Assembly (NCBI GenBank): GCA_032622095.1
Contig: CP136062.1
Span: 229,598,578-229,662,577, forward strand
Origin: Siphonodentalium dalli
Taxonomy: Eukaryota; Mollusca; Scaphopoda; Gadilida; Siphonodentaliidae
Length of the DNA stretch: 64,000 bases
Direction: 5' to 3'
Both the position numbers and the translations under genes were made by a program. The notes beneath the pieces were generated by a model, which did no database searches, had not been told where the DNA came from, and was given only the letters and a program-made list of their open reading frames with translations. This document shows positions 23,143 to 61,169 of the stretch, in pieces. The number at the start of each line of letters is the position of its first letter. Within the stretch, counting starts at the first letter, position 1.

Positions 23143-23146
23143 TTAA

Positions 23147-41675: not shown

Positions 41676-41778
41676 TTAAGTCAATATTAAAATTATAAAT
41701 ATATAACTGTAAAAATTGTTAGGCCAAGGCTCCAGTCATGAAAACGTTAAAAATAAAATAAAAAAATTACTTTACCTA

Positions 41779-41958
41779 CAGTAATGCCCAAAGTAAGTGA
41801 CCACTTAACCACAGCAGAATTATGGGTAACTTTTCTGGATTTAGTCGGAATTATGGCTTGTTGCCATTCATCAGAAAGCTCTCCCCGAGAGCTTTCCGAT
41901 GAATGGCAACAAGCCATATTTCCGACTAAATCCTGAAAAGTTACTTTGGGCATTACTG
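41779..41958. mobile_element. Family D palindromic MITE, TA target
   Basis: CAGTAATGCCCAAAGTAAGT to the reverse complement, TA on both sides. The right arm lacks the TAATTCTGCTGTGG section. It lies 58 bp upstream of exon 12. Confidence 0.7.
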
Positions 41959-42016
41959 TAAATGGCATCCACAATATTTAATCTTTATGTGATGATTATT
42001 TCCCATTTTGTTTCAG

Positions 42017-42106
42017 TCTCATGACCATTCAAAGTGTATACGGCCGTACTTACCAGAATACTCTGTTAAACCACAGAACATCACCATAAGGCTCGGTGGA
42101 TCCTTC
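42017..42106 (+). CDS. GALC: GALC exon 12
   Basis: Thirty codons read SHDHSKCIRPYLPEYSVKPQ and NITIRLGGSF. The Ile-Arg-Pro Arg (residue 383) equals the substrate-contacting Arg380 of mammals. NIT is a glycosylation sequon close to a human one. Acceptor tttcAG, donor GTAAGT, phase 0 at both ends. Confidence 0.94.
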
Positions 42107-42660
42107 GTAAGTTTTGAGTTATACCATAAAATGCGTGTTTAAAACTATATTTTATTTACAAATTGCTATCAATTCGGCACCATGAGGTGACTTTTTTTTA
42201 TCCCTTCTCAGCTAAAGTTTTGGCAATTATTGTATGCATAAAAGTGGAATACAGTTTGACCTTTATGCAAAAAATCCTTTTAAAATAGTCTTTTTTATGA
42301 GAAAATTGTTTGGTGATAGCATATTTTATGCAAATATCCTAATTATGCATTTAAGCGACATGTAATTAACTGAAATTGATTGTACACCTCAAAATAAGTA
42401 AGTTCCCCCTTATATGATATCCATTATGGTCTGTTAAACTCTGTTATTCATCCTATTAACATATTGAAATTTTTTGAAGAATTGAGCACATGGTAAATGC
42501 TGAACATTGTGTTAGTTAAAGGTTTTCTAACCTTCTGACTGTCACTTGATTGGAAAACAATGACCCTAAATTCCCACAGTAACTGATAACTGATCAAGTT
42601 AAAGATAATGCCATGCAGTTAGAAGGGTGATGACTCTTAACCGACACTTAAAACCCAGTT
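42107..42660. other. Intron 12, first part
   Basis: AT-rich intron with nothing recognised. Confidence 0.35.
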
Positions 42661-42910
42661 CCTTTGTATTACCTTGACCTATTTCTCCGAATGGGTCCTT
42701 TATACCCTTTATGGAGCCCCAGACAGAGAGAACAATCCACTGATCATCTGCTTGGGTCTGTGTGAGGTTCCTACCTCGACATTCTATTTCTCAGAATGGG
42801 TCCTTTATGGTGCCCCAGACAGAGAGAACAATCCACTGATGACTGTCGTCTGCCTGGGTTCGTGTGGGATTCCGACCTTGACCTTCTATATCTCCGAATT
42901 TTCACTTTAT
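42661..42910. repeat. Two ~125-bp tandem units
   Basis: Two copies of a segment with gaatgggtcctttat, ccccagacagagagaacaat and ctgcttgggtctgtgtgagg. It is related, in reverse, to the 92-bp units at 14847-15218. Confidence 0.6.
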
Positions 42911-43138
42911 ACCTTGTTTAATACCACAAGTCGACATTTGTAATGTAGAATGTCCATGTACCAAAATATATGCACAATGAGCTCCCCACGGAGGCCTCTA
43001 ACCAAGAAATAGTTCTCTGCTATATGCCTCATTATAAAGATTTATCAGACCATTTAGTTTACGAATGTCCAGTAGCGAGTCCATTAATGCAGACTGATTA
43101 CCCAGTTAACCAGCAATATTCGATGCTGTTAAGCACAG

Positions 43139-43472
43139 GGGCACCAGCCTAGAGGATGACTTGGGAGAGGACCAGCCTAGAGGATGACATGGGAGACGTC
43201 TTCTCCCCAAAATGTGCCACTTCTCCCTACTTTTGTCCTTGGGAGAAGTGACCGTATGCATATTTGAAGTATATTTACTGATTATAATGGTGTACTTACT
43301 CACTGTAATGGTTTTATAAATGAGCTCTTGTTTTGCATAAAAGTTATTGGATGATGGAGAGTAAATTGAACTTCAGCCTTTATGACTTCTCCCAGATAAC
43401 AGTCTCATTTCTCCCTATTAATTTAACAGGGAGAAGTGACTTCTCCAAATTTGAAATCTCTAGGCTGGTACC
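43139..43472. mobile_element. Small TIR element with CACCAGCCTAGAG ends
   Basis: GGCACCAGCCTAGAG at the left (the end is itself duplicated within 40 bp) and CTCTAGGCTGGTACC at the right. The inside has repeated CTTCTCCC/GGGAGAAG motifs in both orientations. Confidence 0.5.
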
Positions 43473-43576
43473 TGGTTGAGCATCAATGTTAAAGTGTGAT
43501 TTATGAAAATGGTTAATGTTCTAATCAATGTACATTCAGACAAAGGTTAATAGACAATGTGCATATCTTTTCTTTA

Positions 43577-44106
43577 TTATACCCCCCGCAACGAAGTTGG
43601 GGGGGGGGGGGGGGGGTATACTAGAATCAGCTTGTCCGTCCGTCCGTCTAACCATCCATGGACACAAATTTGTCCGGAGTTTTTCTGTCGTTTCATGATC
43701 ATTTTCCGGGAACCTGTGCACTGCGAGTATGATGGAGTTATTATGGTGGAGTTATTCCCCCTTTTTCGACTTAGAAATTTTTCGCAACATGTATAATTTT
43801 GTCCGAGCTTTTATTCCTACATTTTAATATAAATTTTTTTTAAACTGTGCACCTGTTATTATGAAGTCTGTCCGACATTTTTTGGTGGAGTTATCCTCCT
43901 TTTTCGATTTAGAAATGTTTTTGCAATATGCATAATTTTGTCCGAGCTTTTAGTCCTACATTTTTCGGTCAATAGGTTTAAGATTAGGGTTAGGGTTGTG
44001 CACCTGCAATGGGAACTGTTATTTTATCATTTTAACTAAATGTTTACTGACATGTGAAACATCTTAGTATTTTAAAAACACATTGGGAGAGTCACACCTC
44101 TAGTTC
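43577..44106. repeat. Second copy of the G-run / GTCCGTCC repeat
   Basis: Same order of segments as 25985-26410, with an extra duplication of the gttattcccccttttttcgac part. A G-run of about 18 lies near 43599. Confidence 0.6.
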
Positions 44107-44133
44107 ATTCAGACTGCATCGACATAAGGAATT

Positions 44134-44588
44134 TAAAGGCCCATTTAATTTTCGAATCACCAATTTTTTATAGTGACTTGATATACAGTTTTAATAACAA
44201 TCTTATGACATAAAATATGATTAAATTACTATAATTCATCACCATTTGGAACGTCTGTGTCTCAGAAGATGACCAAATAGTAATAGAAAATAGCTGAAAT
44301 CATAGAAAGATTTTCCCCATTTCGCTCCCAGATTGCAACAGAATACAAACTAAGAAATAGAGTTATTCCCCTTCCATTGAAAATAATAGACTTTGCAGTA
44401 CAGTCCAGATGGAACTTAAGCACAGAAAACATGTCGGTACCTCAGCAAAAACACATGTTCTCAGTTTATTACACCGGATAAGTTAATAATACAATGTTTT
44501 GGAGCTTCCTCTTTAAAATGGTATATAATATGGCATATATTTTATATAATGTGATCTGGGGTTTCAAAAATTAAGTGGGCCTTTAAAT
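44134..44588. mobile_element. Family S MITE ending just before exon 13
   Basis: TTTAAAGGCCCATTTAATTT at the left and AAAATTAAGTGGGCCTTTAAA at the right are inverted ends. It stops 17 bp before exon 13, so its right edge abuts the polypyrimidine tract. Related copies: 59393-59838 and part at 61296-61514. Confidence 0.7.
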
Positions 44589-44605
44589 TGATTTTTCATT
44601 TTCAG

Positions 44606-44695
44606 GCTAAGATTTCATCGCTTAATATTTGGTACAGCAAACTTGGCTTCAAAGGAACAAAAACAACAATGTTAAAGAAATTAACTCCCGTTAAA
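44606..44695 (+). CDS. GALC: GALC exon 13
   Basis: Thirty codons read AKISSLNIWYSKLGFKGTKT and TMLKKLTPVK, matching human [26 protein letters not shown]. Beta-sandwich domain. Acceptor atttttcattttcAG, donor GTGAGT, phase 0 at both ends. Confidence 0.92.
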
Positions 44696-44715
44696 GTGAG
44701 TAGTACATGTACAGT

Positions 44716-45427
44716 CAATCCTTCCATGATTAGAGCTTCCTGAATTTTTCGCAAACCCTGTGCCCATGCATTCTCTTATATATGCGAGTCTCCCATATAT
44801 ATGAGAGAATGCACTGGCTCGGGATCTTTAATGTAGGCTAATTCAATTTGATGCGATTCGGAATCTTTCATCTGATTCGATTCGATTTGAAATCGGCTGT
44901 CCTGATTTGAATTGTATCGAATCATTGGCACCAGTTGCATTGTCATTACTTCAACGGATCACATTGCTTTTTCGCAAAGATATATCATGATGCCAGCGCA
45001 TATAAATAACATTGCCGTTGACTCAGCTATACTATAGACCACCGAAGCATTGTAAGACTTGTGCAACTGATCTAGCAAAATTTCTATATATGTCAAACTT
45101 GTGAACGCGATTGCTGTCTGGCTTCAATATTATTGCTTCTGATAATGTTTCATTGTCATATAACAGAGACAATTTCCACAAAGATAGCGCACTTGCAAAT
45201 GATAAGACTTGCCTTTGATTCATTAATACATAATATTTATTTACATCGTATACTGATGGTCATTTATCGTCGTTATGAAGTGAGCAAATTGATATTCGTC
45301 ATGTATTATCTTCATCATCACTATTATTATGCCTGATTGAATTATTTGATTCGAGATTCGATGCGATTCGGAATCAGTTGGGCCCTACTTTAATGGTGAA
45401 CCAGCACACCTCCCGTCATGAAAGGGT
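44716..45427. mobile_element. Family B2 remnant interrupted by an ATTCGATTCG-rich element
   Basis: The B2 left end (CCTTCCATGATTAGAGCTTC) and right end (ccgtcatgaaagggttaa) are split near 44833-45388 by a segment whose ends carry GATGCGATTCGGAATC in the same region on both sides. A related scrap lies at 45650-45748. Confidence 0.45.
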
Positions 45428-45473
45428 TAATCACATAGCCTCGATGCAAGAGAAATTTATTGTAATAAGCGGA

Positions 45474-46395
45474 TATGTTTATGTCGGGATTCAGATATTT
45501 GGCCCATTTTGTGTGTACATTTTATTTACGATTTGATCACATCTTCCGTCGTCAATGCATCAATCATTGAATATTGCTGTTGCTTTATTTGTTTTCTACT
45601 TTTTTCTTTTTTAAGACACCAAAACTATCTTTGTAATTGGCAGAATGTGGTCTGATTCGATTCGAGATTTGATTAAAAATGAAAATGTCCGATTCGCAGG
45701 GCTCTACTTTAATTCTGAACCAGCACACCTCCCATCATGAAAGGGTTAATGACATAGCCTATATACAATAAGCGGGTATGTTTATGTCGGGATGTCCAAA
45801 ATTGAAATCGAATGGTGGCACAAGGACTGGATCGGTCGCTAGGTATTTAGTTTTAAATATACGAAGGGATGATGATTCTTTGATTTTCTTTGACATGGTG
45901 TTCCATTCCCTAGTTGTATTTGATAAAATGTGTGTTCAAAATGCTCAGTTCTTTTGAACGAATATAGAGGAAAACTTGTTTTATCTCTAAAATCATATCT
46001 AGCATCAGATTCGGGGCGGGAGGGTAAGAGATTGTGAAGGTATTTAGGGGTCGCATTATTAGATATTTTCTACATGGTATTCATTCTATGGGATTTCTTT
46101 CTGTTTGGTAAAGTCTGCAGCCGCAATTCTATGAGCATTTTAGGGACGGATCGACTGAGACCTGTAATAGTTCGACCCGCATCGGGTTCATGGTATATAA
46201 TATGGCATATATTTTGTATAATGTGATTTGGGGGTTCAATGGTATATAATATTGTATGTTTATGTCGGGATGCTGATATTTGGCCCATTTTGTGTGTACA
46301 TTTTATTTACGATTTGATCACATCTTCCGTTGTCAATGCATCAATCATTGAATATTGCTGTTGCTTTATTTATATTCCTACTTTTTCTTTTTTAA
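45474..46395. repeat. Local duplication holding a TTAA empty site
   Basis: The segment 45474-45650 (atgtttatgtcgggattcag ... ttttttaagacaccaaaac) recurs at 46256-46392 and continues after the MITE at 46666. The first copy lacks the MITE and so gives its pre-insertion sequence at 45610-45615. The stretch between, 45750-46255, shows nothing else. Confidence 0.7.
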
Positions 46396-46665
46396 CCCTT
46401 TGAGTGCCAGGTCCGATTTTTGTATCAACCCATATACCCTGTGCCAATGCATTCTCATATATATGCGAGTCGACCATAGGTCGCCTCGCATATATAAGAG
46501 AATGCATTGGCCTAACAATTTTTCATCAATTGTTATTATTTTTTACAATTTTTTACAATTTTAATAATTTTTTAAAAATCTAAAAAAAAAAAAAAAAACA
46601 AATTAGGGACGATTTTACAGACCGTAAATTAGGGCTGATGAGATCGGCCCCTGGCACTGAAAGGG
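46396..46665. mobile_element. TTAA-flanked MITE (CCCTTTGAGTGCCAGG ends), with empty site
   Basis: CCCTTTGAGTGCCAGG at the left and CCTGGCACTGAAAGGG at the right, with TTAA at 46392-46395 and 46666-46669. It contains one family B hairpin (46436-46515). Related copies: 55711-55996 and 60598-60834. Confidence 0.8.
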
Positions 46666-46692
46666 TTAAGACACCAAAACTATCTTTGTAAT

Positions 46693-46930
46693 TGGCAGAA
46701 TGAGGTCCCCAGAGGGTGAATTTAATTACACTATCCCACACAGCAGACCTCTTGGGACCACATTCTGCTTAGTCCTCAACTGCTATGGGAGACCTGGTAT
46801 CAAATTGAAGTTCTCCAGTTGAAGTTGGTGATGCTCATCAATTAGTTACCTTGATTATGCATTGTATCTTTTGCATATTAGGGGATGTAGAAACTTAACA
46901 GAAGGGAAAAAGTAACTAAAAACAGTTTTA
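46693..46930. mobile_element. Family C copy, partial
   Basis: GCAGAATGAGGTCCCCAGAG and a damaged second arm, followed by the core segment (gttggtgatgctcatc...aacagaaggg). Confidence 0.5.
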
Positions 46931-47029
46931 AAAAATTTGATGTTTTTTTTATATAATTTAAATTTTTCAAATAAACATCCAATGAAGAACAATTTTAATA
47001 ATATTTAAATTCTGTTGCTCTCTCTTTAA

Positions 47030-47408
47030 CCCTTTACCCAACAGAAGGGCCCTGTGCCAATGCATTCTCTTATATATGCGAGTCGACCATAGGTCGCCTC
47101 GCATATATAAGAGAATGCATTGGCTTAACACATTAAAAATTATAATTGTTAAAGAATGTAAGAAAAAATGGTAAAAAAAGATTTTTTTTAGGCCAATGCA
47201 TTCTCTTATATATGCGAGGCGACCTATGGTCGACTCGTATATATAAGAGAATGCATTAGCACAGGGCTAACTGTAACTATCACAATGTGGTCAAGGAGCC
47301 GGTTCCAATGATATCCATATGTGTATGGTTCTATTGAGACATACCGAAGATATTTTAGGCTTATGAAGCTTTATTTGGCCGGTTTTGGCCGGTTTGTTGG
47401 GTAAAGGG
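47030..47408. mobile_element. Family B1 composite MITE, TTAA on both sides
   Basis: CCCTTTACCCAACAGAAGGG at the left, two opposed hairpins, the tatccatatgtgtatggttc block and TTGTTGGGTAAAGGG at the right. TTAA at 47026-47029 and 47409-47412. Confidence 0.75.
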
Positions 47409-47412
47409 TTAA

Positions 47413-47618
47413 CCCATCAGTGCTAAGTCCGATTTTTGTATCAACCCATATTTCCTTGATCATTTTTCGAATTTATTGATTATAATAATGTGACACATTG
47501 ATGGAAAGATCTCTAAGAGCTCTTTCCATCAATGTATCACATTATTATAATCAATAAATTTGAAAAATGATCAAGGAAATATGGGTTGATACAAAAATCG
47601 GACTTGGCACCGAAAGGG
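47413..47618. mobile_element. Foldback MITE sharing a TTAA with its neighbour
   Basis: A long palindrome (arms about 95 bp) with CCCATCAGTGCTAAGTCCG and GGACTTGGCACCGAAAGGG ends. It lies between TTAA 47409-47412 and 47619-47622, so the first TTAA is shared with the B1 element to its left. Confidence 0.7.
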
Positions 47619-47689
47619 TTAACTCCACTTTTTTCCAGCTGGCTCACTACTGTCTTATGTACAAGGAACACTCACATTCTCTCGTTTTT

Positions 47690-48020
47690 TTATGACTTCG
47701 CTGTTTATTTTATACTTGAAATTTCACTGTTTTATAGGTAACAAATGGCCAGTTTTTATGATTTCGCCATTTATTTTATACTTGAAGTTTGACTGTTTTA
47801 TAGGTAACAAATGGCCAGTTTTTATGATTTCGTCATTTATTTTATACTTGAAGTTTGACTGTTTCATAGGTAACAAATGGCCAGTTTTTATGATTTCGCC
47901 ATTTATTTTATACTTGAAGTTTGACTGTTTTATAGGTAACAAATGGCCAGTTTTTATGATTTCACCATTTATTTTATACTTGAAGTTTCACTGTTTTATA
48001 GGTAACAAATGGCCAGTTTT
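47690..48020 (+). repeat. 66-bp tandem array of the exon 14 splice acceptor (5 copies)
   Basis: Five units hold an ACTGTTTTATAG acceptor and the first 19 bases of exon 14 (GTAACAAATGGCCAGTTTT). AGs lie at 47736, 47802, 47868, 47934 and 48000. The first four read GTAACAAATGGCCAGTTTTT then ATGA, which gives TGA after seven codons in the exon 14 frame. Only the last copy continues into the full exon. Confidence 0.92.
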
Positions 48021-48143
48021 CACTAGACCTTGCTCTTGATGAGGTTTACACACTGACAACAACAAATCGTGGCAATAAAGGCGACTACGGAACTCCGCCA
48101 GCATCGGCTCCATTCCCACTTCCCTATAAGGATAATTTTGAAG
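48002..48143 (+). CDS. GALC: GALC exon 14
   Basis: The exon reads VTNGQFSLDLALDEVYTLTT, TNRGNKGDYGTPPASAP and FPLPYKDNFE, matching human [44 protein letters not shown]. End of the beta-sandwich and linker to the lectin domain. Acceptor is the last of five; donor GTATGT at 48144, phase 1. Confidence 0.94.
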
Positions 48144-48268
48144 GTATGTAGTCCAATGTATTAATCAAAGTAATTCAATCGATTCTCACTTTGTATGAAG
48201 TCCAATCAAAGTAATTAAATCGATTCTCACTTTGTATGAAGTCCAATCAAAGTAATTAAATCAATTCT
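48144..48268. repeat. ~45-bp tandem repeat directly after the exon 14 donor
   Basis: Three units with tatgaagtccaatcaaagta and attaaatcgattctcacttt start at the donor GTATGTAGTCC. The exon end itself is not included, but the donor's intron bases are (tatgaagtcc). Confidence 0.75.
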
Positions 48269-48389
48269 CACTTGGTTCCAATAAAACAACTTTTCAGCAT
48301 CTATATTGCCCCCCAACAGTTTCTTTTAAATGTAAAACATATATGCATCATACATATTACCAGCCAATGTATTAATCAAAGAAATTAAA

Positions 48390-48600
48390 TCGATTAACCC
48401 TTTCATGACTGCAGCCAATGCATTGTCTTATATATGCCAATCTCCCATAGGGAGCCTCGCATATATAAGAGAATGGATTGGTCTAACAATATTTACCCTC
48501 ACCAGTGATTTCTCTTATATATGCGAGGCTCCTTGTGGGAAACTGCATATATAAGGCAAAGGATCTTTAATGCTGCACCAGCGCAGCTCCTGTCATGAAA
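48390..48600. mobile_element. Family B2 MITE, partial
   Basis: TTAACCCTTTCATGACTGCA, two hairpins (48410-48480, 48500-48560) and a GCGCAGCTCCTGTCATGAAA right end without the closing TTAA. Confidence 0.55.
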
Positions 48601-48999
48601 TGCTTCCAATGTATCGCATATTTTTACATTATCGTGTAATTTGTTCCATTCTGTATAAAAACGATTCCATGTAATAATTAGGAGATATACATACCCTGTT
48701 GTGTTGGATTCGAGCACGAAAACAGTTTGTGAACTAGATGGCTTGTTTTCATGCTCGAATCTCCAAGCCTGGTAAAAAGTCGATGAGAAGACGGTCTCGA
48801 ACCTAATTGCATATGGATGTGAATATCTCTAAAATCAAGTGCCGTTTATGTGTCAGATATTTGACAAACCGTCCTAATTTCGTTGAACAAAATGTTGATA
48901 AATAACAGGTTTTGGGAATTTTATACTATAATTGACCATGGTTAGCATTATTTTTGGGCAATTAATCGATTCTGATAACTGAAGACTCAATAGTCTCAA

Positions 49000-49650
49000 A
49001 ACAACATTGTTTTAGTTACTTCTGTTCAGTTTCTATATCCCACAATTTTCAGAAGATAAATTGAATAATCAAGATGACTTGAACTGGGGAACTTCAATCT
49101 GATCCTAGGTCTCCCATAGCAGTTGAGGCCTCGGCAGAATGACGTTCCCAGATACAAATATCCCCAGAGATCTAGAAACTGAACGGAAGGGAAAAAGTAA
49201 CTAAAAACAATGTCAATTTGAAACTATAGATACTTCCCAGAAGATGAGGCCTAAGCAGAATAAGGTCCACAGAGTGTGAAATTAGTGATGTTAGCCCACC
49301 TGTGCAGGATAACGTCACTAAATTCACTCTCTGGGGAACAATTTCTGCAAATGACAGACACTATTTGCAGGCTTGGCTGTCAAACTAGCCATCTCAGACA
49401 TCATGCCACATACTATAGTCGTCTTATGGCCAGAAAGTTTTCTAATACTACTTCTATTTATTTATAGATATCAAAATGCCGAAAGCAAAAAATAATGTGC
49501 AAAATCTGTATATCTATTTCTGTCATAATTCCCAGAACATGAGGATTAAGCGGAATGAGGTACCTAGAGGGTGAATTTGGTGATGCTGGCCCACACTGTG
49601 GAATGGTGTCACTGCATTCACCCTCTGGGGACCTCAAGCAAAACACGTCT
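49000..49650. mobile_element. Family C composite, two palindromes
   Basis: Core segment in reverse (49000-49130), damaged palindrome, core forward, palindrome at 49250-49370 and another at 49550-49640. Interrupted by about 150 bp of unrelated DNA. Confidence 0.5.
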
Positions 49651-49914
49651 GTTCTTTTGCAATGACAAGACATTGCCGGTGTATCCTCATGTCGAATTTG
49701 TTTGGCGATCGGTCGTCTGTATTATCGTCATCGTAGGGGCCTGCATGCTATGACCGTGTGATTAGAATGCAGGGTCTTTATCATTGACTGTTTCTTTGAC
49801 TGTATATAACGTCTATGTAACTATACCAGATATCAATTATGTACAAAATCCAAAACAAAAAGAGCATCTTTCTGCCATTGACCAATTTTCATGAATGTGA
49901 CCCAACAATAATAT

Positions 49915-50170
49915 CAACTCGGCAATGAATACACAATGAATACACAATGAATACACAATGAATACACAATGAATAACAATCAATACACAATCGATACACA
50001 ATCAATACACAATCGATACACAATGAATTCACAATGAATACACAATCGATACACAATGAATACACAATGAATACACAATCATTACACAATCGATACACAA
50101 TAAGTACACAATCAATACACAATCAATACACAATCGATACACAATCAATACACAATCAATACACAATGTT
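49915..50170. repeat. 10-11-bp minisatellite (ATACACAATGA / ATACACAATC)
   Basis: About 24 short units of AATACACAATG, AATACACAATC or GATACACAATC. It gives a Cys/Val/Tyr-rich spurious ORF on the minus strand. Confidence 0.85.
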
Positions 50171-50261
50171 AATTTCAATGCCAATCTAACACCGGAGATT
50201 GGCAAATAATGGTCCTATCAAATAATCGCGACATAGTAGACAATAGTCAGCTGTGCCTACT

Positions 50262-51248
50262 GTATACACCCGTCAGTATGCTCATCCTCGAAGATAAGCC
50301 TAGTCTCTATACACCCGTCAGTAAGCCCATCCTCGAAGATAAGCCTAGTCTCTATACACCCGTCAGTATGCTCATCCTCGAAGATAAGCCTAGTCTGTAT
50401 ACACCCATCAGTAAGCTCATCCTCGAAGATAAGCCTAGTCTGTATACACCCATCAGTAAGCTCATCCTCGAAGATAACCCTAGTCTGTATACACCCGTCA
50501 GTATGCTCATCCTCGAAGATAAGCCTAGTCTGTATACACCCATCAGTAAGCTCATCCTCGAAGATAAGCCTAGTCTGTATACACCCGTCAGTATGCTCAT
50601 CCTCGAAGATAAGCCTAGTCTGTATACACCCGTCAGTATGCTCATCCTCGAAGATAAGCCTAGTCTCTATACACCCGTCAGTAAGCCCATCCTCGAAGAT
50701 AAGCCTAGTCTCTATACACCCGTCAGTATGCTCATCCTCGAAGATAAGCCTAGTCTGTATACACCCATCAGTAAGCTCATCCTCGAAGATAAGCCTAGTC
50801 TGTATACACCCATCAGTAAGCTCATCCTCGAAGATAACCCTAGTCTGTATACACCCGTCAGTATGCTCATCCTCGAAGATAAGCCTAGTCTGTATACACC
50901 CATCAGTAAGCTCATCCTCGAAGATAAGCCTAGTCTGTATACACCCGTCAGTATGCTCATCCTCGAAGATAAGCCTAGTCTGTATACACCCGTCAGTATG
51001 CTCATCCTCGAAGATAAGCCTAGTCTGTATACACCCGTCAGTATGCTCATCCTCGAAGATAAGCCTAGTCTGTATACACCTGTCAGTATGCTCATCCTCG
51101 AAGATAAGCCTAGTCTGTATACACCCGTCAGTATGCTCATCCTCGAAGATAAGCCTAGTCTGTATACACCTGTCAGTATGCTCATCCTCGAAGATAAGCC
51201 TAGTCTGTATACACCCGTCAGTATGCTCATCCTCGAAGATAAGTCCAT
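50262..51248. repeat. 45-bp minisatellite, ~22 copies, with 8-unit higher-order repeat
   Basis: Each unit holds CTCATCCTCGAAGATAAGCC and tagtctgtatacacccgtcag. Variant units follow the same eight-unit order twice: the line starting 50281 equals the line starting 50641, 360 bp apart. The rest of the array is nearly uniform. The 45-bp period keeps long ORFs open on both strands. Confidence 0.92.
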
Positions 51249-51589
51249 TCTTGGTTTTTTACACTAAATAAAACATGGGGTGCTCCTCGTAGATAAGTCC
51301 ACCCCATTTCTGAGCATTTGGAAGGTGAATACAATCACGTCTTTCTATCCTGTAGAATAGGAGAAGATACTCAAGCACATCTGTGCTTTTATTATTTTTT
51401 CCAGTTGTTAATCTTAAAAAATAAAGATGTATAATAGTATACACTTGTGTTAATATTGGAGGGGGAGGGTGGGTGGATCTTCTCGTGTGTAAGCCCAGTA
51501 CCCACTTTTTTACCTAAAACGTGCACTAGCCCCCGGGCTTACTGACGGGTGTATACGGTACATACACAATGGCCCAATACACTATCAGT

Positions 51590-52040
51590 TGCTTGTACAT
51601 GTGCATTGTTTGAGTATATGCCGCAGATACACGTTTGAGTATAATACACAAGCTTCATACATCTCACCGTAAGTATATATGCTGCAGATATATACATGAG
51701 TATAATACACAAGCTTCGAACATCTCGCCATGAGTTTATATGCTGCGGTTACATGCGTGAGTATAATACACAAGCTTCAAACATCTCGCCATGAGTATAT
51801 ATGATGCAGATACATCCGTGAGTATAATACACAAGCTTCATACATCTCACCGTAAGTATATATACCTTGGATACATGCGTGAGTATAATACACATGCTTT
51901 GTACATCTCGCCATGAGTTTATATGCTGCGGTTACATCCGTGAGTATAATACACAAGCTTCATACATCTCACCGTAAGTATATATACCTTGGATACATGC
52001 GTGAGTATAATACACATGCTTTGTACATCTCGCCGTCATA
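51590..52040. repeat. ~62-bp tandem repeat, ~7 copies
   Basis: Units with gagtataatacacaagcttc and atctcaccgtaagtatatat. The last two units repeat a two-unit pattern (ataccttggatacatgcg), again suggesting a higher-order duplication. Confidence 0.8.
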
Positions 52041-52349
52041 ATTCTTGTATATTTTTGTAGTTAATTTTCTGCTATATTTTGACAGAGGGATGAAAGTTAC
52101 ATCATGAAAATGATATTGCAGAAACAATTTGAATTTTAAAACAACAGAACTTGACCTCTCTTCGATGGTGGTTTCCTGGCTATAGTCTATGAGGACTCAT
52201 TTGGTGCTGTGACATGCATTGATAATATCTTGACCTATTACCGAATGGTGGTTTCTTGGCTATTGTCTCATTGGGTGCTGTGACATACGCTGATAGTATC
52301 TTGACCGATTATCGGATGGTTATCCTGGCTATATATAGTATATAGTACT

Positions 52350-52680
52350 TGAGGGCTCATAGGCGGGCTAGCACCACCAAATTCACCCTCTGGCAACCTC
52401 ATTCTGCTTAGCCCTCAACTACTATGGGAGATCTGGGATCAGATTGGGTACCATGATGATGCATTTTATCTTCTGCAATTTAGGGGAGGATATAGAAACT
52501 GACAGAAGGGAGAAAGTAACTAAAAACTATTTTAATGTTAGACTAGATACTTCCCACAAGATAAGACCTAAGCAGAATGAGGTCCACAGAGGATGAATTT
52601 GGTGATGCTAGCCCGCTGTGCAGGGTAGCATCACTAAATTCACCCTCTGGAGACCTCATTATGCAGATTGCTTGGTTCAC
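52350..52680. mobile_element. Family C copy
   Basis: Half palindrome at 52365-52410, core to about 52560, full palindrome at 52570-52670. Confidence 0.55.
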
Positions 52681-52734
52681 ATGGGTATGAATGGATTTCT
52701 GCAGTTGAAGCTGAAATAACACATGAATGTTTTA

Positions 52735-52810
52735 TACCCGCAGGGAGCCTCACATAGATGGAAGCATGCAAGCCTGCTCAAGTCTTATGTGGGGCTCTCT
52801 ATGGGTTAGT
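52735..52810. mobile_element. Small GGGAGCC...GGGGCTC element
   Basis: ACCCGCAGGGAGCCTCACAT to GTGGGGCTCTCTATGGGTTA, the same unit type as 38862-39275, single copy. Confidence 0.5.
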
Positions 52811-53211
52811 TCAGTTAGTTCATTTCACAGGGGCGTTAATTGAGGCTTGGTTCATAGGGGCTCAATACTATAAAAGGTTAAAATATGCAATTGATTTGGT
52901 AGATTAACATTAGATCTGTTTTTGTACAAAAGTGGGTTCTTCATTGATAAATATTGAATTTGAAAATGACGGTCTATTTTTCTGCAGTACTAAAGTGTCT
53001 CCACCATGCCTGTTCTGGCCATGAAGTTTTTGTTCATCATCTGTGTTATAAGTTTTAGAACAGTTTATCCTAGAATTGTATACCTGATTTGTAAAATATA
53101 GCTTTTACTTGAGCGATTGGCATTGGAATTTTAGGAACCTATTCAGGCGTTTGTGAATTATGTCCTTATAAGTGTGTACATATTTGAAATAGTGAACTCC
53201 CTTGTAACATA

Positions 53212-53443
53212 TTAACCCTTTACCCAACAAACCGGACAAAACCGGCCAAATAAAGCTTCAACAGCCTAAAATATCTTCGGTCTGTCTCAATAGAACCATA
53301 CAAATATGGATATCATTGGAACCGGCTCCTTGACCACATTGTGATAGTTACAGTTACAGTTATGCCCTGTGCCAATGCATTCTCTTATATATGCGAGTCG
53401 ACCAGAGGTCGCCTCGCATATATAAGAGAATGCATTGGCCTAA
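53212..53443. mobile_element. Family B1 MITE, truncated on the right
   Basis: TTAACCCTTTACCCAACAAA, the AAAACCGGCC and tatttgtatggttc (reversed) blocks, one hairpin at 53362-53443, then the element ends without a second hairpin or TTAA. Confidence 0.6.
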
Positions 53444-53737
53444 AATCAGCAGCGCACCTGAAGGACTGTAGTGATGTGTTTGTTAAAGTGGCATGCTCAT
53501 TTTTTTTTTATTTATGATTTTTACTTGTTTTTAACGACACACCCGAACTGTTTATATCGATATTGACTGTAATGCTTGCAGTTATGCTCAATTGTGCAAC
53601 TCCTGATGATTAATTTGACACAGTGTTACTGTCACATGCTCCATTCAAATGATTTCAACTATCAGCAGGTGACCAATCAGAATACGTATTTTACCAACAA
53701 GTGTTACAATTACTAATACGATGATCTTACTCGCCAG

Positions 53738-53912
53738 GCTATGTTTATCATCAAGAGCCGTTTAATATGGCACAACAAACCGGGTCATACGAAGTGTTGT
53801 CAGCGACCACCAAAAACAAAATCCTCCGGCAAATGGTACAGCAGGTTCCGTGCTTGTGGTGCGCTGCTGATGGTGTCGGTATGAGCAGTAACGTGTTCGG
53901 CAACCATTCTTG
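53738..53912 (+). CDS. GALC: GALC exon 15a (alternative, first copy)
   Basis: The exon reads GYVYHQEPFNMAQQTGSYEV, LSATTKNKILRQMVQQVP, CLWCAADGVGMSSNVFGNHSW. It is one of three homologous exons opening the lectin domain (residues 482-540). It keeps the LRQ motif, the Trp at about residue 522 and ends Gly-Asn-His-Ser-Trp, so it has an N-H-S sequon. Acceptor CTCGCCAG has a weak pyrimidine tract; donor GTGAGA. Entry phase 1, exit phase 2, 175 bases. It cannot be joined to 15b or 15c without a prompt stop. Confidence 0.87.
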
Positions 53913-53944
53913 GTGAGAATTCAGAAATAAACAAGACTTGAAAT

Positions 53945-54360
53945 AGTGTGTCTGTCATTGCAAAATGAGGTCCCCAGGGGGTGACTTTAGTGACGATACT
54001 CCACACAGCAGGCTAGCATCACCAAATTCACCTTCTGGGGACCTCATTCTGCATAGGCCTCATATTCAGGGAAGTATCTATAGTCTCAAATTGACATTGT
54101 TTTTAGTTACTTTTTCCCTTCTGGGAAGTTTCTATATACCCTAATTTGCAGAAGATAAAATGCTTAATAGAGGTGACTAATGGGTGAACAGCACCAATAT
54201 CAACTGGGGAACTTCAATCTAATCCTAGGTCTCCCATAGCAGTTGAGGCCTCAGCAGAATGAGGTCCCCAGAGAGTGAATTCTGTGATGTTAGCCCACTG
54301 TGCGGGATAGCGTCACTCAATTCACCCTCTGGAACCTCATTCCGCAAATGCAGGCTTGCG
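53945..54360. mobile_element. Family C composite after exon 15a
   Basis: Palindrome at 53960-54050, core reversed, second palindrome at 54255-54345. It starts 32 bp after the exon donor. Confidence 0.6.
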
Positions 54361-55076
54361 CATCCATGTGTCCGGTCATCTGTCCACCCGTTTTCATTGA
54401 TAGCTTCTGTCTGGATAATCCACTCAGAACTAGGATCAGTGAAAATTAGATTCTCCAAATATGGTCGCAGTCCACTGATTTATATCAGAGTAACTAGGCG
54501 TTTTAACTTACAATATGCAGTTTTAGTTGTCTGAGTACTGGCCAAATTTAAAATGGTCCCAATTTTATACTTTTTGCCAGGATTATCCCCAACTTCTGAG
54601 ATTTCTCCAGGGTTAGGATACACTGTGATAACCACCTGTTATATATTAGTATCTTGGTATCTAATGGCTATTTTTACGAACTTGCTCATGTCTCTCTTGG
54701 CACATATTTTAGCATGTCATAGCACACAATGAACTGCATGTCCTCTATGTATGGCCTGTGATACCTTCTGTGCATAAACTATTTTGATTTTCATGTAAAT
54801 ATTTGGTTTTATGCTCTAAATAAGTTAATTCAAGTTAATTCTAGTTAACAATTTCAGGATAATTAATAATGAATAATAACTTTAAGAACAATATTGTTTT
54901 CAAATATTTTTCCATACTCTGTCAAACTTAAGCAGAAATATGAACTTTCGAAAGTGAGCCTACAATTGAAATGTAATCCGTGTCACTAAACCTGTGCCTA
55001 TAATACAATACTTAGGGACAGTTTAGAGTACACTGGCACGGAAATAATTAAACGATGGATTTCCCAGCCAATTCAT
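54361..55076. other. Intron between 15a and 15b, nothing recognised
   Basis: AT-rich intron without supported features. Confidence 0.35.
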
Positions 55077-55690
55077 CATATATATAAGGACCAAGTCTTC
55101 TTGGTTCACAACACCTTGGGACATCGGTTGGGTTGATGCTGTTTTGGACAGAGTCCTGTCCCGTTACTCTTCTATAATAGACTTTACACCCAGATTCATG
55201 GGCGGGAGTTATCTTGCTTATATGTCTTCGGATTAAGTCAAAAGAAACCTTTGCATATAAAAGATAAAGGGCAGCCTTTCCCAAGAATGATGATATCAAA
55301 CATGCTTATATCAGAGGTCCGTTATATGTCAAAGCAATGAGATTTATAAGTAAACAATGCCTTGTTTTACAGAGAATTTCGGTTTGTCGCACTATCAGAA
55401 AATGCATGTAAACATACATTAAACAATTGTATCATTGCTATACCCTTTTCTATCATGGTAAATGATATATCATTTTGAAGACAGATCAATTAATTAACAA
55501 GTCAGATGATTAATGACATTCAGGGGTTTACTTGAATGCCCTGGCTGGCTCCACGTGTACATGTAGTACGTCTTTTGAATGAAAGTCCATTATAGAAGAA
55601 CAACAGGGCGGGACTCCGTCCAAAATAGCTTCAACCCAACTGATATCCCAAGCTGTTGTGTACTGAGAAGACTTGGTCTACATATATATG
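55077..55690. mobile_element. Element with ~130-bp inverted ends (family DD), intron 15a-15b
   Basis: catatatataaggaccaagt at the left and acttggtctacatatatatg at the right belong to ~130-bp diverged inverted ends that include TTGGGTTGATGCTGTTTTGG. About 610 bp. A second, shorter copy lies in the next inter-exon intron. Confidence 0.65.
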
Positions 55691-55710
55691 ACAATATTTT
55701 GAGATATTAA

Positions 55711-55996
55711 CCCTTTGAGCGCCAGGTCCGATTTTTGTATCAACCCATATACCCTGTGCCAATGCATTCTCTTATACATGCGAGTCGACCATAGGTCACC
55801 TCGCATATATAAGACAATGCATTGGCCTAACAATTTTTCATCAGTTGTTATTATTTTTTACAATTTTTTACAATTTTAATAATTTTTTAAAAATCTAAAA
55901 AAATAAATATATGTTTTTAATTTTTTAATTTTTTTAGGGCCGATTTTACAGACCGTAAATTAGGGCCGATGAGATCGGCCCCTGGCACTGAAAGGG
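55711..55996. mobile_element. TTAA-flanked MITE (CCCTTTGAGCGCCAGG ends)
   Basis: TTAA at 55707-55710 and 55997-56000, one family B hairpin (55750-55830), and cctggcactgaaaggg at the right. It ends 51 bp upstream of exon 15b. Confidence 0.75.
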
Positions 55997-56047
55997 TTAA
56001 ATTGGATTTTGCACGTATTCTCAAATCATGTCTTCATTTTCCTACAG

Positions 56048-56225
56048 TATATACAGTTAATGGAGAACCATTCCATTTGTCTCAGCAAGTTGGCGTATAC
56101 GAAGTGCTGAAATCAACATCCCCACACCGGCAAATATTACGGCAGACTGTTCACTACCATCCAATCGAATGGTGCCCCATCATTAATAATCCATTTCCCG
56201 TAAACCTTATCGGGAATTATAACTG
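56048..56225 (+). CDS. GALC: GALC exon 15b (alternative, most human-like)
   Basis: The exon reads VYTVNGEPFHLSQQVGVYEV, LKSTSPHRQILRQTVHYHPI, EWCPIINNPFPVNLIGNYNW. It aligns best to human (TGVFEYFTNIE...[28 protein letters not shown]). It keeps the Trp at residue 523 (human about 524) and ends Asn-Tyr-Asn-Trp, which with Ser from exon 16 restores the conserved N-W-S/T sequon. Strong acceptor ttttcctacAG, donor GTAGGT, phases 1 and 2, 178 bases. Presumed ancestral/default copy. Confidence 0.92.
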
Positions 56226-56267
56226 GTAGGTTATCAGCTGAATGGTGTAATCCTAAAATATTCCTGT

Positions 56268-56440
56268 CATTTGCAGAATGAGGTCCCAGAGGGTAAATTT
56301 AGTGATGGTATCCCGCACACCGGGCTGGCATCAACACATTCACCCTCTGGGGACCTAATTCTGCTTAGGCCTCAAATGCTATGGGAGACATAGGATCAGA
56401 TTGAAGTTCCCCAGTTGAAGTTGGTGATGTTCACTTATTG
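56268..56440. mobile_element. Family C copy after exon 15b
   Basis: Palindrome (GCAGAATGAGGTCCCAGAGG and reverse) at 56275-56370, then part of the core segment, cut by the DD element. Confidence 0.55.
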
Positions 56441-56444
56441 GAAT

Positions 56445-56915
56445 GATGCTGTTTTTAGACCGAGTCCCACCTCGTTGCACTTCTATAACAGAATCGTGGG
56501 TGGGGGTTATATTGCTTGTATGTTTTCAGATTAGGTCAAATGGAAGCTTTACGCATATGAACATAGAGGGCAGCCTTTCCCAAGCATGATATCAAACATG
56601 CATATATCAGAGGTCTATATATAAGAGATATATAAGTAAACAAAACATAGTTTTCCAGAGAATTTTGATTTGTCGCACTATCAGAAAATGCATGTATCAT
56701 GGTAGGTGTATCATTTTGAAGAAAGATTAATCGCGACATGTCAAGTGATCAATCACATTCAGTGGTTTACATGAATGCCCGGGCTCCACATTTACATGCA
56801 GTAAGTCTTTTGAATGAACGACTGTTATAGAAGAGCAATGGGGCGGAACTCGGTCCAAAAACAGCATCATCCCAACCGATATCCCAAGCTGTTGTGGACC
56901 AAGAAGGCTCAACAC
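56445..56915. mobile_element. Second DD element, intron 15b-15c
   Basis: gatgctgtttttagaccgag at the left pairs with ctcggtccaaaaacagcatc near 56850. The left end is truncated relative to the right, which continues with ccgatatcccaagctgttgt. Same family as 55077-55690. Confidence 0.6.
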
Positions 56916-57049
56916 AGACAATGCGTAATGTTCTCCACCTTGGTCATTTTGAACTTTCTGCCACCAGCAATTTTTCTGTAGTTTTTGTACCTGCATAGAA
57001 TATATATATATATACATCATTACAACTACAGAATGTCTTTAAATGGAAA

Positions 57050-57430
57050 TCTGGGGACTGCATAGTGGGCTAGCATCACCAAATTCACCCTCTGGGGACC
57101 TTATTCTGCATGGCCTCATCTGCTATGGGAGACATAGACTCAGATTGGAGTTCACAAATGGTGAATATTGTGATATACACTGATTGGGAACCTCGATTAT
57201 GCAATTTGTCGTCTGCCAATTTGGGGATATAGAGAAACTAAACTAAATAATAAATAGAATCTATGTGAAGAAGTTTCTATAGAAATTTGTTAATAAAGAA
57301 ACTTTCCAGAGAAGATGAGGCCAAAACAGAATGAGGTCTCCAGAGGGTGAATTTAGTGATGCTAGCCCACATAGTCACTAAATTCACTCTCTGGGAACCT
57401 CATTCTGCAAATGGCCGGCACTATATTTTG
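57050..57430. mobile_element. Family C composite before exon 15c
   Basis: Half palindrome at 57055-57115, core as in 27180-27360, full palindrome at 57327-57412. It ends about 30 bp before the exon 15c acceptor. Confidence 0.6.
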
Positions 57431-57457
57431 AGGTCTCTTCCCCGTTTTATATTGTAG

Positions 57458-57632
57458 AATATGCGGAGTTCCAAGGGCCCTATAATTTAGCACCACAAAA
57501 CGGCGTGTATGAAGTGATGCACACAAGTGACAAAATACACGGCAACGTACTCAGACAAGTCATTCTGCATGAACCAATCGAAAGCTGCCGCAATTTCATG
57601 CCATTTTTGAGCAATGTGATTGGACAATTTTG
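57458..57632 (+). CDS. GALC: GALC exon 15c (alternative, third copy)
   Basis: The exon reads EYAEFQGPYNLAPQNGVYEV, MHTSDKIHGNVLRQVILHEP, IESCRNFMPFLSNVIGQFW. It shares NGVYEV and LRQ with 15b but has Ser where 15a/15b and human have the Trp before the Cys/Ala. It ends Gly-Gln-Phe-Trp and so lacks the sequon. No stops, strong acceptor gttttatattgtAG, donor GTATGT, phases 1 and 2, 175 bases. Open frame and kept phase argue that it is under selection. Confidence 0.87.
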
Positions 57633-57839
57633 GTATGTTGACTGAAATGAGTTATTTTCACACTATGCAGGGCAGAAAGTTTAATAATTTTTAATTTGTT
57701 TTTAATTTTTATTTATATAAGTTAACTACATACAGTGATGTTATAGAAACATATATGTAAGCAAACACATCATTTTAATAAATTTTTTACACCTTTGGAA
57801 AAAAAGGTCGTATTATGTAATCAGTTTAGCCATCCAACT

Positions 57840-58800
57840 GTCCGTCAGAATGTCCGTCTGTCCATCCATCCATTAACATTTTTGGTTCCTATCGATAACT
57901 CAAGTTTGGATTATTTGATCTGAACCAAAGTTGGTATGTGTATTTCCCAGCTGATAGTACAGGCCAAGTTCGAATATGGGTTCCGTCCAATTATTTTTAC
58001 ATGAGTTACGGCCCTTTTTTGACTTAGAATTTGACTGTCTGTTAACATTTTTGGTTTCCAGACGATAACTCCAGTGTGGATTATTTGATCTGAACCAAAG
58101 TTGGTATGTGTATTTTCCAGCTAAAGATACAGGCCATTTTCGAATATGGGCTCTGTCCAATTATTTTTACATGAATTACGGCCCTTTTTGTCCCCCGACG
58201 TTCTGAAAGAAAAGGGGGACTATAGAAACATTCGTTCGTCCGTCCGTCACACCTTTGAGTACCTTCATGGTGTAATCATCTCCTCCTACAAATTTCATCC
58301 CAGAGATTTGAAACTTCAGAATAGTGTTGACAATATATTGAAGATGTGCAACATATATATAGATGATGGAATTTTTTTGTTTTGACTGAGTTATTAACCC
58401 TTTTCGACTTAGAAAATTAAAAAAAAAATTATAATTTTCAGTATGAGGGTACCTTCATGGTGTAATCAACTCCTCCAACAGTTTTCATCCTAGAGATTTG
58501 AAACTTCAGAATATTGTTGCCCACATATTGGAGATGTGCAACATGTATATAGATGATTTTCGACTTTTTCAACATTTAAAAAAATATCTTTAACAAAGCG
58601 GCATCGACTTGCCACGTTGTCGGGGGACACTGTGGTTGGCTAACCTTTTATTCTACTAAAATTTGACCGATTTCATAACATTTCGGTTTCGGACCAATAA
58701 CTCCTGTTTGGATTATTTGATTTTAACCAAAGCTGGTATGTGTGTTTCCCAGCTAAAACTACAGGCCAAGTTCAAATATGGGTTCTCAACACCATTGTGA
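57840..58800. repeat. ~165-bp tandem units of a dispersed repeat
   Basis: Units with cgataactccagtgtggatt, atttgatctgaaccaaagtt and ggtatgtgtatttcccagct occur near 57890, 58065 and 58690. A different repeat starting GTCCCCCGACGTTCTGAAAG and ending gttgtcgggggacac lies inside (58190-58630), itself with two internal ~250-bp copies. Confidence 0.6.
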
Positions 58801-59392
58801 TTTTTTTGGGAGATTGATTCCATTCGACACCAAAATATTGAGTTGCGGGGATTAGTGAGCGCTATAATGGTATGTTGTAAACAACATGGTATAGTGTTAA
58901 CCAAGGTTCACTTAGTGGGATCCCCCCCCCCCCCCGGTGTTGAGTGTTTTGTTTATCACACACTCTTTACATACTGTACTGTAACATAATATGGCTTTTG
59001 TTTACAAACATGGCATACGATATTGACAATAACATGCTATTTATGCGATATTTATGATCGGCATAAGAACAAAATATGTCTATATTGTAATATTTCTTTC
59101 TGTTCATGGTGGTGTTAACAGATGTGACTATTTTAACAGCACTACCCACTGTGAAGGCCATCCGTATCTTTAAACATTTAAACTTTCTACATTCTTTATC
59201 GCTCCATTGACATTATCCCCTTTCCAAGTTGAACTTCAGTTTCATTGACAAATTTAATTAATTTACAGTTTTGTTTGCTCTCTCATTGAGGATAAAGGTT
59301 TTACATGTATGTTTGCTCTCTCATTGAGGGTAAAGCTTTTTCATACCGTAAAGTAATAAAGAAAGAAATTTAATCTGAAATATGTGGTTTAA
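58801..59392. other. Intron 15c-16, nothing recognised
   Basis: Contains a poly-C run of about 16 near 58923 and a short duplicated phrase (gtttgctctctcattgaggg at 59270-59335). No other feature supported. Confidence 0.4.
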
Positions 59393-59838
59393 TTTAAAGG
59401 TCCATTTAATTTTCGAGTCACCGATTATTTTGTTTATAGTGCCTTGATATATGGTTTTAATAACAATCTACGCCATAAAATATGATTAAAATACTACAAT
59501 TCATCACCATTAGAAACCATAGAAAGATTTCCCCGTTATGGCTCCCAGAATGCAACAGAATTCAAACTAAAAATGTATTTTCAATGGAAGGGGAATAACT
59601 TTATATCTTAATATATAGAGTTATTCCCCTTCCATTGAAAATAATACTTTTGCAGAAGCTTTAGCACAAACATGCTGTCGGTATCTCAACAAAAACAACA
59701 TGTTCACTGTTTATTACATCGAATAAGTTGAAAATATAATGTTTTGGAGCTTCCTCTTTCAAATGGTACATGTATATAATATGGCATATATTTTATATAA
59801 CATGATCTGGGGTTCGAAAATTAAGTGGGCCTTTTAAA
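59393..59838. mobile_element. Family S MITE, upstream of exon 16
   Basis: TTTAAAGGTCCATTTAATTT to AAAATTAAGTGGGCCTTTTAAA, as in 44134-44588. It ends 104 bp before exon 16. Confidence 0.7.
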
Positions 59839-59942
59839 GTATATTCTTGTCTCTAGTTTTGAAGAGTTGATCCTTCTAACTTGTGATGTGGTTTGATATT
59901 CTTTTTCATCTTTCATTATGCCGTTTTTGCGTATGATTACAG

Positions 59943-60112
59943 GAGCGATATTTATGTTGAGATAGACACGTCGATTGTTGGTGTGAATGCCACAGATGGC
60001 GTCTTCGTCGCAGCTCGTATAGACACTGGTGGCTGTCAAACATTTATGGCGACTGGGATATATTTCTTCATATTTCCCAAAAAGAATGAGTTCAAGGTCA
60101 CAGGGGATTTAG
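59943..60112 (+). CDS. GALC: GALC exon 16: lectin domain
   Basis: The exon reads SDIYVEIDTSIVGVNATDGV, FVAARIDTGGCQTFMATGIY and FFIFPKKNEFKVTGDL, matching human [25 protein letters not shown]...GIFFWIFANGSYRVTGDL. NAT is a sequon. Acceptor gattacAG at 59941-59942 in phase 2, donor GTAATT at 60113, phase 1. Its first base completes the Trp codon of whichever exon 15 is used. Confidence 0.93.
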
Positions 60113-60351
60113 GTAATTAATTAAATTATCAACTCCTCAATTTTTAAACAGGTCTCCCACAATCTGAATTCAACCATTTAAAACATTTTAAAAAGCTAGT
60201 CCCCCCTCTCCACCACCAGATATTTTCGATGAAATTATCAGATGTAATATCTAGAATGCAATTTGGGAAAAGTATATTTCGGTCCAGCGCGGAACCTGGT
60301 TTTCTGTATTTTCGCAATCCCAGTGCCATACCATTGATGGCAATTGCAAGT

Positions 60352-60563
60352 AGAGTAATGCCCTAAGTAATCGACTCCTTAACCACAGCAGAATTATGGG
60401 TAACTTTTCAGGATTTAGTCGGAAATATGGCTTGTTGCCATTCATCGGAAAGCTCCCACTGAGAGCTTTCCGATGAATGGCAACAAGCGATATTTCCGAC
60501 TAAATCCTGAAAAGTTACCCATAATTCTGCAGTGGTTAAGGAGTTGATTATTTAGGGCATTGC
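60352..60563. mobile_element. Family D palindromic MITE
   Basis: gagtaatgccctaagtaatc to its reverse complement (ending gggcattgc); arms about 100 bp with few mismatches. The ends have decayed, so the TA flanks are not clear. Confidence 0.65.
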
Positions 60564-60597
60564 ATGTAGTTTCCATTTTCCTATTGCCTTGTATTAA

Positions 60598-60834
60598 CCC
60601 TTTGAGTGCCAGGTCCGATTTTTGTATCAACCCATATACCCTGTGCCAATGCATTCTCTTATATATGCGAGTCGCCTAACAATTTTTCAACATTTGTTAT
60701 TATTTTTTACAATATTTTACAATTTTAATAATTTTTTTAAAATCTAAAAAAAAAAAAAGTTTTTTATTTTTTTAGGACCGTTTTTACAGACCGTAAATTA
60801 GGGCCGATGAGATCGGCCCCTACAACTGAAAGGG
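60598..60834. mobile_element. TTAA-flanked MITE with damaged hairpin
   Basis: TTAA at 60594-60597 and 60835-60838; CCCTTTGAGTGCCAGG left end and tacaactgaaaggg right end. Only half of the family B hairpin remains (60643-60680). Confidence 0.7.
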
Positions 60835-61095
60835 TTAATTAAAGCTTAAAATATACTTAGGAAATTTTGGTGCCAGATCGGGCCGAGCATCTTTTACAAC
60901 ATTTAGACCCAATTGAATGGTAATAGGTTGTCTTATGTGTCATCATGAATCTCTTTACTTTCATCATAAAAACAAACATGCTAACAATTTACATGCAACA
61001 GCATTTTTCAATTATTTGTGTGCTGTCTGATTTTGGATTATTTTGATCAAACTCACATAATGCCAGTATTATTTGTTCCGACTGTCTATCTTCAG

Positions 61096-61169
61096 CCCAG
61101 ACAAACACACTGACACATGGAAAGCTGAGTGGGCTAAAACCATGGAACAATCTCTCTCTGCTGATTAAG
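61096..61169 (+). CDS. GALC: GALC exon 17: lectin domain
   Basis: The exon reads AQTNTLTHGKLSGLKPWNNL then SLLIK. It is aligned by position to human [26 protein letters not shown]: the Gly-Lys/Gly-Arg turn, the Trp and the alternating hydrophobic strand agree, though overall identity is low. NLS is a possible sequon. Acceptor tatcttcAG at 61094-61095 in phase 1; donor GTAGGC at 61170, phase 0. It is the least certain exon, but phase and length (74, as expected) fit. Confidence 0.78.

Follow-up and report, generated by a model that had tools for sequence, protein, structure and literature searches.

Three tandem versions of exon 15 in a GALC-like gene of the scaphopod Siphonodentalium dalli: a candidate cluster of mutually exclusive exons

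Can a single gene for a lysosomal hydrolase choose among three versions of one of its exons? The question is raised by a GALC-like gene (glycoside hydrolase family 59, GH59) in a stretch of 64,000 nucleotides (nt) from the scaphopod Siphonodentalium dalli (C2:229598578-229662577; hereafter the window, within a searched genome of 2.2 Gb). Three homologous copies of exon 15, here called 15a, 15b and 15c, stand in tandem between exons 14 and 16 of this gene (Table 1). They are a strong genomic candidate for a set of mutually exclusive exons, a reading to which we give a probability of roughly 0.6, and the gene would then probably make three enzyme variants.

Re-reading the window reproduced the exon coordinates, GT-AG borders, shared phases and open frames of the original prediction. 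Each version is flanked by AG and GT, is entered in phase 1 and is left in phase 2: exon 14 leaves one base, to which the version adds two, and the version in turn leaves two bases, to which exon 16 gives one. The donor of exon 14 (gtatgt) would serve all three. When the eight possible sets of copies, from none to all three in genomic order, were translated from exon 14 through exon 16, the frame stayed open in three, exactly the single-copy ones. A stop was met in the other five (none, ab, ac, bc and abc), as expected from the claim that transcripts with no copy or two copies are out of frame. A sensitive tblastn search of the interval between exons 14 and 16 found no fourth copy of exon 15.

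The peptides share 22/57 (15a and 15b), 19/55 (15a and 15c) and 23/55 (15b and 15c) residues, and thus differ at well over half of positions, as had been predicted. With 15b as the tblastn query, 15a was retrieved at E 1.6e-10 and 15c at E 4.7e-8. The direct match between 15a and 15c is weak (E 1.5 and 1.05 in genome-wide searches with each as query); judged from these alignments, the two are tied together through 15b and mouse GALC. Joined to exon 16, which accounts for part of the E-values, the versions matched mouse GALC in the PDB at 7.4e-13 (15b), 2.5e-12 (15a) and 1.4e-11 (15c).

The criteria for mutually exclusive exons set out in the relevant part of PMC3228551 comprise similar length (a difference of 20 amino acids being allowed), splice-site pattern, frame and homology. 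The three versions agree with published cluster criteria in length, splice-site pattern, phase, homology and loss of frame on joint inclusion or skipping. They resemble the tandem-duplicated mutually exclusive exons of Dscam, Mhc, MRP1 and other genes, as portrayed in excerpts of PMC3228551, PMC6071210 and PMC5740500, in being adjacent, homologous, of like length and equal phases and bordered by GT-AG, with joint inclusion breaking the frame. Unlike those clusters, the present one belongs to a lysosomal hydrolase and is known from genomic sequence alone. On the fly X chromosome, 90 of 16180 exons (0.56%) not annotated as mutually exclusive share the cluster features (PMC3228551), and a human survey cautions that many highly similar neighbouring exons are not mutually exclusively spliced (PMC5740500).

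Four further GALC-like loci, P2 to P5, lie on the contig of the window. A single exon 15 is detectable in each, in every case closest to 15a (91, 65, 57 and 51% amino acid identity); exon 14 is 71-98% identical to its counterparts in the four loci over 41 residues. Because the exon 15 detected in all four paralogues is of the 15a type, 15a is the ancestral or reference type, and on this comparison 15b and 15c are the extra exons and 15a the common one. The original prediction had treated 15b as the default exon, which the paralogues do not bear out. Queried with 15b and 15c at E-values of up to 10, the genome yielded, beyond the window exons and 15a-type exons, only four weak matches to 15b (E 1.45-7.4); as this search scores best candidates only, absence cannot be concluded from a missing match. 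Sensitive tblastn of the 14-16 intervals of all four paralogues likewise found neither exon. The 15b match on contig 9 (E 1.45), the only one of the four inspected, was rejected as chance, since stops interrupt its frame and the vicinity has no further GALC exon; the other three have E-values of 6.3-7.4.

P2 and P3 were compared with the window gene over the located exons, and P4 and P5 were read in the exon 14-16 interval only. With 15b and 15c excluded, along with any match weaker than E 0.001, nonsynonymous (dN) and synonymous (dS) divergence from the window gene was 0.029 and 0.129 for P2 (500 codons) and 0.158 and 1.24 for P3 (496 codons). No stops were seen in the exons matched between the three loci. 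The low dN relative to dS and the lack of stops mark the window gene, P2 and P3 as constrained genes. Gene conversion is suggested by exon 11 (39472-39611), where dS between the window gene and P3 is 0.105, as against 1.24 for the exons taken together. Exon 15 of P2 (L001 7961-8131) has Asn for Tyr/Phe and Arg for Met at positions that window 15a and P3 keep, perhaps through relaxed constraint. A lone GALC exon 4 match on the minus strand at G000:C2:194203470-194203562 is apparently a gene fragment.

P2 also bears on the age of the cluster. It is colinear with the window up to window position 54325 (P2 8550) and again from window 59417-59433 (P2 8558-8574), and in P2 the two flank ends nearly abut, separated by a few odd bases. 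Both P2 breakpoints run through foldback repeats that the window has in full, so that a 5.1-kb deletion which took 15b and 15c out of P2 is the simplest explanation; on the same ground, an insertion into the window was ruled out. A further copy of the second of these repeats is found at 44130-44589. A loss from P2 means that the cluster predates the split between the window gene and P2, in line with the earlier claim that the duplication is old. The best-supported history is that a 15a-type exon was copied before that split and that the copies diverged strongly while keeping frame, phase and splice borders, P2 then losing 15b and 15c.

The duplication is likely to be older than the split from P3-P5 as well. 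A protein tree of eight rows places all exons of the 15a type in one group that leaves out 15b and 15c (support 85/96). Constraining 15b and 15c to group with window 15a and P2 was not rejected (approximately unbiased test, p 0.105); with 15b alone so constrained the tree was rejected (p 0.021), and with 15c alone it was not (p 0.109). Third codon positions lean the other way, towards a later duplication, with 31/57 differences between 15a and 15b and 42/57 between P3 and 15b. The same foldback repeat starts about 40 nt downstream of both 15a (53912-54052) and 15b (56225-56364), at a near-equal offset. A young duplication that carried this repeat along was considered and not adopted: the spacers of about 37 nt are unlike by eye, and the repeat after 15b matches the one after P2 exon 15 at 85.7% and another family copy at 87.6%. 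The near-equal offset is an oddity all the same.

Exon 15 encodes a piece of about 58 residues, corresponding in the alignment to roughly residues 485-540 of mouse GALC. This numbering is offset by +12 from that of chain 3zr5, by our own count; on checking, E182 and E258 fall on the Glu of WNE and SED, and R520, T523 and W524 on the matching letters of RPITW. R520 and T523 of GALC form bonds to saposin A at its residue 24 (PMC5764952, in part); W524 is a pocket-wall residue, and E182 and E258 belong to the active site (PMC4445328, in part). The residues at the R520/T523/W524 positions are V/L/W in 15a, H/E/W in 15b and E/E/S in 15c, the pocket-wall Trp thus being replaced by Ser in 15c. All three versions have Cys directly after the W524 position, where mouse has Ala. 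Among the paralogues, P3 has K/Y/W and P4 K/L/Y, with Tyr at the W524 position (L003 5168-5341), and exon 15 of P5 (L005 3555-3719) is without three codons that include this position. The W524 site is therefore variable both among paralogues and among the three versions. We infer from these residues that the versions would differ in pocket shape and saposin contact. The corresponding GALC-type enzymes would differ in substrate or saposin partner, 15c being the most altered.

Selection on the extra exons was assessed with our own codon-model script on a fixed tree of exon 15. A single dN/dS across the tree was estimated at 0.24 (log-likelihood, lnL, -908.47). With dN/dS set to 1 for the branches of 15b and 15c alike, lnL was -915.09, compared with -907.93 with both free, and joint neutrality was rejected (difference 14.3, 2 degrees of freedom, p about 0.0008). 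These fits indicate that at least one of 15b and 15c was under coding constraint and do not tell which. Second- versus third-position differences number 17:35 between 15b and 15c (p 0.018), 19:31 between 15a and 15b (p 0.12) and 21:33 between 15a and 15c (p 0.13). By Fisher's test, 15c preferentially keeps the residues common to 15a and mouse (p 0.005; 0.008 when P3 is the reference), and the result is less clear for 15b (p 0.07, or 0.10 with P3). Pairwise NG86 (Nei-Gojobori) estimates were set aside as too saturated to use (dN 0.64 and dS 2.9 for 15a and 15b; 0.65 and 2.3 for 15a and 15c; dS undefined for 15b and 15c).

As to how one version might be selected, the exon 14 donor would join one of three acceptors. 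Transcripts with zero, two or three copies would shift frame and either decay or yield truncated protein, so that only one-copy transcripts would count. Which version is taken would probably depend on the three acceptors competing under the influence of splicing factors. None of the 16 located exons has an acceptor with a lower pyrimidine fraction than 15a (0.59, longest run 4); the fraction is higher in 15b (0.68, run 7) and 15c (0.77, run 10), and by eye the exon 15 acceptors of P3-P5 look stronger than that of 15a. These strengths would fit competition among acceptors, and say no more than that. Competing docking and selector RNA structures are the mechanism of many, not all, clusters; unlike these, the window shows widespread foldback repeats only. 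Inverted pairs of at least 30 nt number 31 in 52200-60300, the longest being 172 nt at 85% (54179-54350 with 56268-56439). Pairing of such repeats may help the choice in an unspecific way, and might conceivably loop out 15a or 15b in a layout like the one described in part of PMC6071210.

Several points weigh against mutually exclusive use of the three versions. The lengths of 175, 178 and 175 nt were given correctly in the original prediction, but the length rule is automatic for any copy of a 1-mod-3 exon: duplicates of a phase 1-2 exon inherit their length, which is not independent evidence for exclusion. Open frames alone are modest evidence too, since a neutral simulation (without indels) leaves a 12-16% chance per exon of meeting no stop at 40% identity. 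Neutrality of a single branch was not rejected against the free model (p 0.12 for 15b and 0.31 for 15c), so that the earlier claim of kept open frames is backed by constraint on 15b and 15c jointly and not on each singly. Saturation also shows in the free fit, where the length of the 15b branch climbed to 37, close to its upper limit. Measured by pyrimidines, 15a has a weak acceptor, though one matched by those of the constitutive exons 5 and 16. The foldback family also crowds other introns, with 49 half-copies in the window, and hence is not specific. Finally, P2 is without 15b and 15c, and neither was detected in P3, P4 or P5.

The likeliest alternative, which we place somewhat below even odds, is that no exclusion machinery exists: several combinations would be spliced, and frame shift with decay of the faulty mRNAs would leave the one-copy transcripts. 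No observation speaks directly against it. The introns between the versions (2135 and 1232 nt) leave no evident steric block and argue against steric hindrance. All sites are GT-AG, and none of the donors (gtgaga, gtaggt and gtatgt) is an obvious minor-spliceosome donor, so that a clash of spliceosome types is not indicated. This alternative overlaps with mutually exclusive use and differs from it in mechanism only, and the confidences given here do not sum to 1.

It is less probable, and on balance unlikely, that only one of 15b and 15c works as an alternative to 15a, the other being a recently disused, intact-looking relic. Fixing dN/dS at 1 on 15b alone or 15c alone costs just 2.0 or 2.5 in twice the log-likelihood difference from the one-ratio model, and 15c has lost the pocket Trp. 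Yet borders, phase and frame are kept in both exons, both acceptors have good pyrimidine content, and 15c has kept the residues shared with mouse. Still more improbable is a constitutive 15a accompanied by two unspliced relics heading for loss. The loss of both from P2, their lack of detection in P3-P5 and the presence of 15a counterparts in 4/4 paralogues would suit it; the rejection of joint neutrality, and the lack of any stop, frameshift or broken splice border in 15b or 15c, speak against it. An assembly artefact, in which 15b and 15c were misjoined from another gene copy, is very improbable: five similar GALC-like loci on one contig are a setting where misjoins can happen, but the genome searches picked up 15b and 15c at no other place, the flanks are colinear with P2, a deletion accounts for the P2 breakpoints, and other GALC exons have only short weak matches in the segment (the best to antisense exon 17, E 5.5e-4, without masking).

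Table 1. Features of the GALC-like locus and its paralogues (window positions, or megabases of the contig for P2 to P5)
Feature	Position	Strand	Remarks
GALC-like gene body	10979..61169	+	exons 3-12, 14, 15a/b/c, 16 and 17 located
Exon 14	48002..48143	+	upstream partner; open frame, AG/GT borders
Exon 15a	53738..53912	+	175 nt; ancestral type; Trp at W524 position
Exon 15b	56048..56225	+	178 nt; detected in window gene copy only; Trp at W524 position
Exon 15c	57458..57632	+	175 nt; detected in window gene copy only; Ser at W524 position
Exon 16	59943..60112	+	downstream partner
Foldback repeats around exons	52365..57408		could pair across 15a or 15b; weak loop-out candidates
Segment with 15b and 15c, missing from P2	54326..59416	+	about 5.1 kb; colinear flanks
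Foldback repeat	54254..54345		whole in window; truncated in P2 at left breakpoint
Second foldback repeat	59391..59837		arms 75% complementary in window; most of left arm gone in P2 at right breakpoint
P2	229.69-229.73 Mb		nearest paralogue
P3	229.38-229.44 Mb
P4	233.88-233.96 Mb
P5	193.90-193.95 Mb

The assignment of the host gene to the GALC type is supported by sequence comparison, and the gene looks intact where read. Sixteen exons were located (3-12, 14, 15a, 15b, 15c, 16 and 17), all open and with AG/GT borders; the exon finding relied on open frames conserved in paralogues, so that openness is partly by construction and dN/dS is the better evidence. Four exon matches inside the window passed the cut-off of the Pfam profile PF02057 (Glyco_hydro_59). 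Exons 5-9 align to 3zr5 positions 112-274 of mouse GALC (E 2.3e-59), with both catalytic Glu kept at 3zr5 positions 170 and 246 (E182 and E258). Near 330-470, a leader-like frame was recognised by a GALC-like N-terminal motif alone, its start codon not being fixed. Exons 2 and 13 were not located in the window, nor was the last exon or exons in a narrow-motif scan reaching 7 kb past it. The gene thus resembles mouse GALC (GH59; 3ZR5, 4CCC) in exon homology and in the Glu182 and Glu258 positions. The mouse chain, in contrast, is a single sequence, and the window gene has three versions, changed at R520, T523 and W524.

Other repeats and frames accompany the gene. In tandem arrays with a period of about 94-107 (15275-15765 and 16637-17129), the 3' half of exon 4 recurs, along with its 5' splice site, into the intron that follows. 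A 66-bp array in about five copies (47687-48020) carries the acceptor and opening bases of exon 14, so that several acceptor copies follow one another ahead of the exon. Intron 14 contains a 45-bp tandem array of about 22 copies (50260-51243), with long stop-free stretches in several frames. A stop-free frame of 1157 amino acids on the minus strand of intron 9-10 (33207-36680) is perhaps a transposable element.

Abnormal splicing of human GALC in Krabbe disease is reportedly the subject of PMC12731088, which concerns patients. No report of a mutually exclusive exon cluster in GALC was found among the matches listed, most subscription papers lying outside the search, which agrees with the original statement that no such splicing of GALC had been reported. 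Nothing relevant on GALC gene duplication in molluscs was found among the matches listed. An exon duplication is described in GALC of the black fruit bat; unlike the window cluster, it lies near the N-terminal region, and the passage concerned describes no alternative use (PMC12008523). The kind of cluster is itself already known, and what is new here are the four paralogous loci, 15a as the ancestral type and the loss of 15b and 15c from P2.

The host gene is an unusual one for mutually exclusive exons, and the site is functionally telling. Glycosphingolipid hydrolases are usually pictured as one gene, one enzyme. We tentatively propose, as a rather doubtful extension of mutually exclusive use, that one GALC gene makes three enzymes, changing its active-site wall and saposin-docking face by splicing. 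The 15c form, without the pocket Trp, would have a new substrate or a non-catalytic binding role, and the sister gene would have given up the choice and retained just the 15a form. Should all three exons be in use, the substrate and saposin specificity of a glycosphingolipid hydrolase would be retuned through splicing. The gene family offers a natural comparison, with one copy that has three choices, one from which two were clearly deleted and three in which the 15a type only was detected, and it bears on exon duplication and gene duplication as stand-ins for each other.

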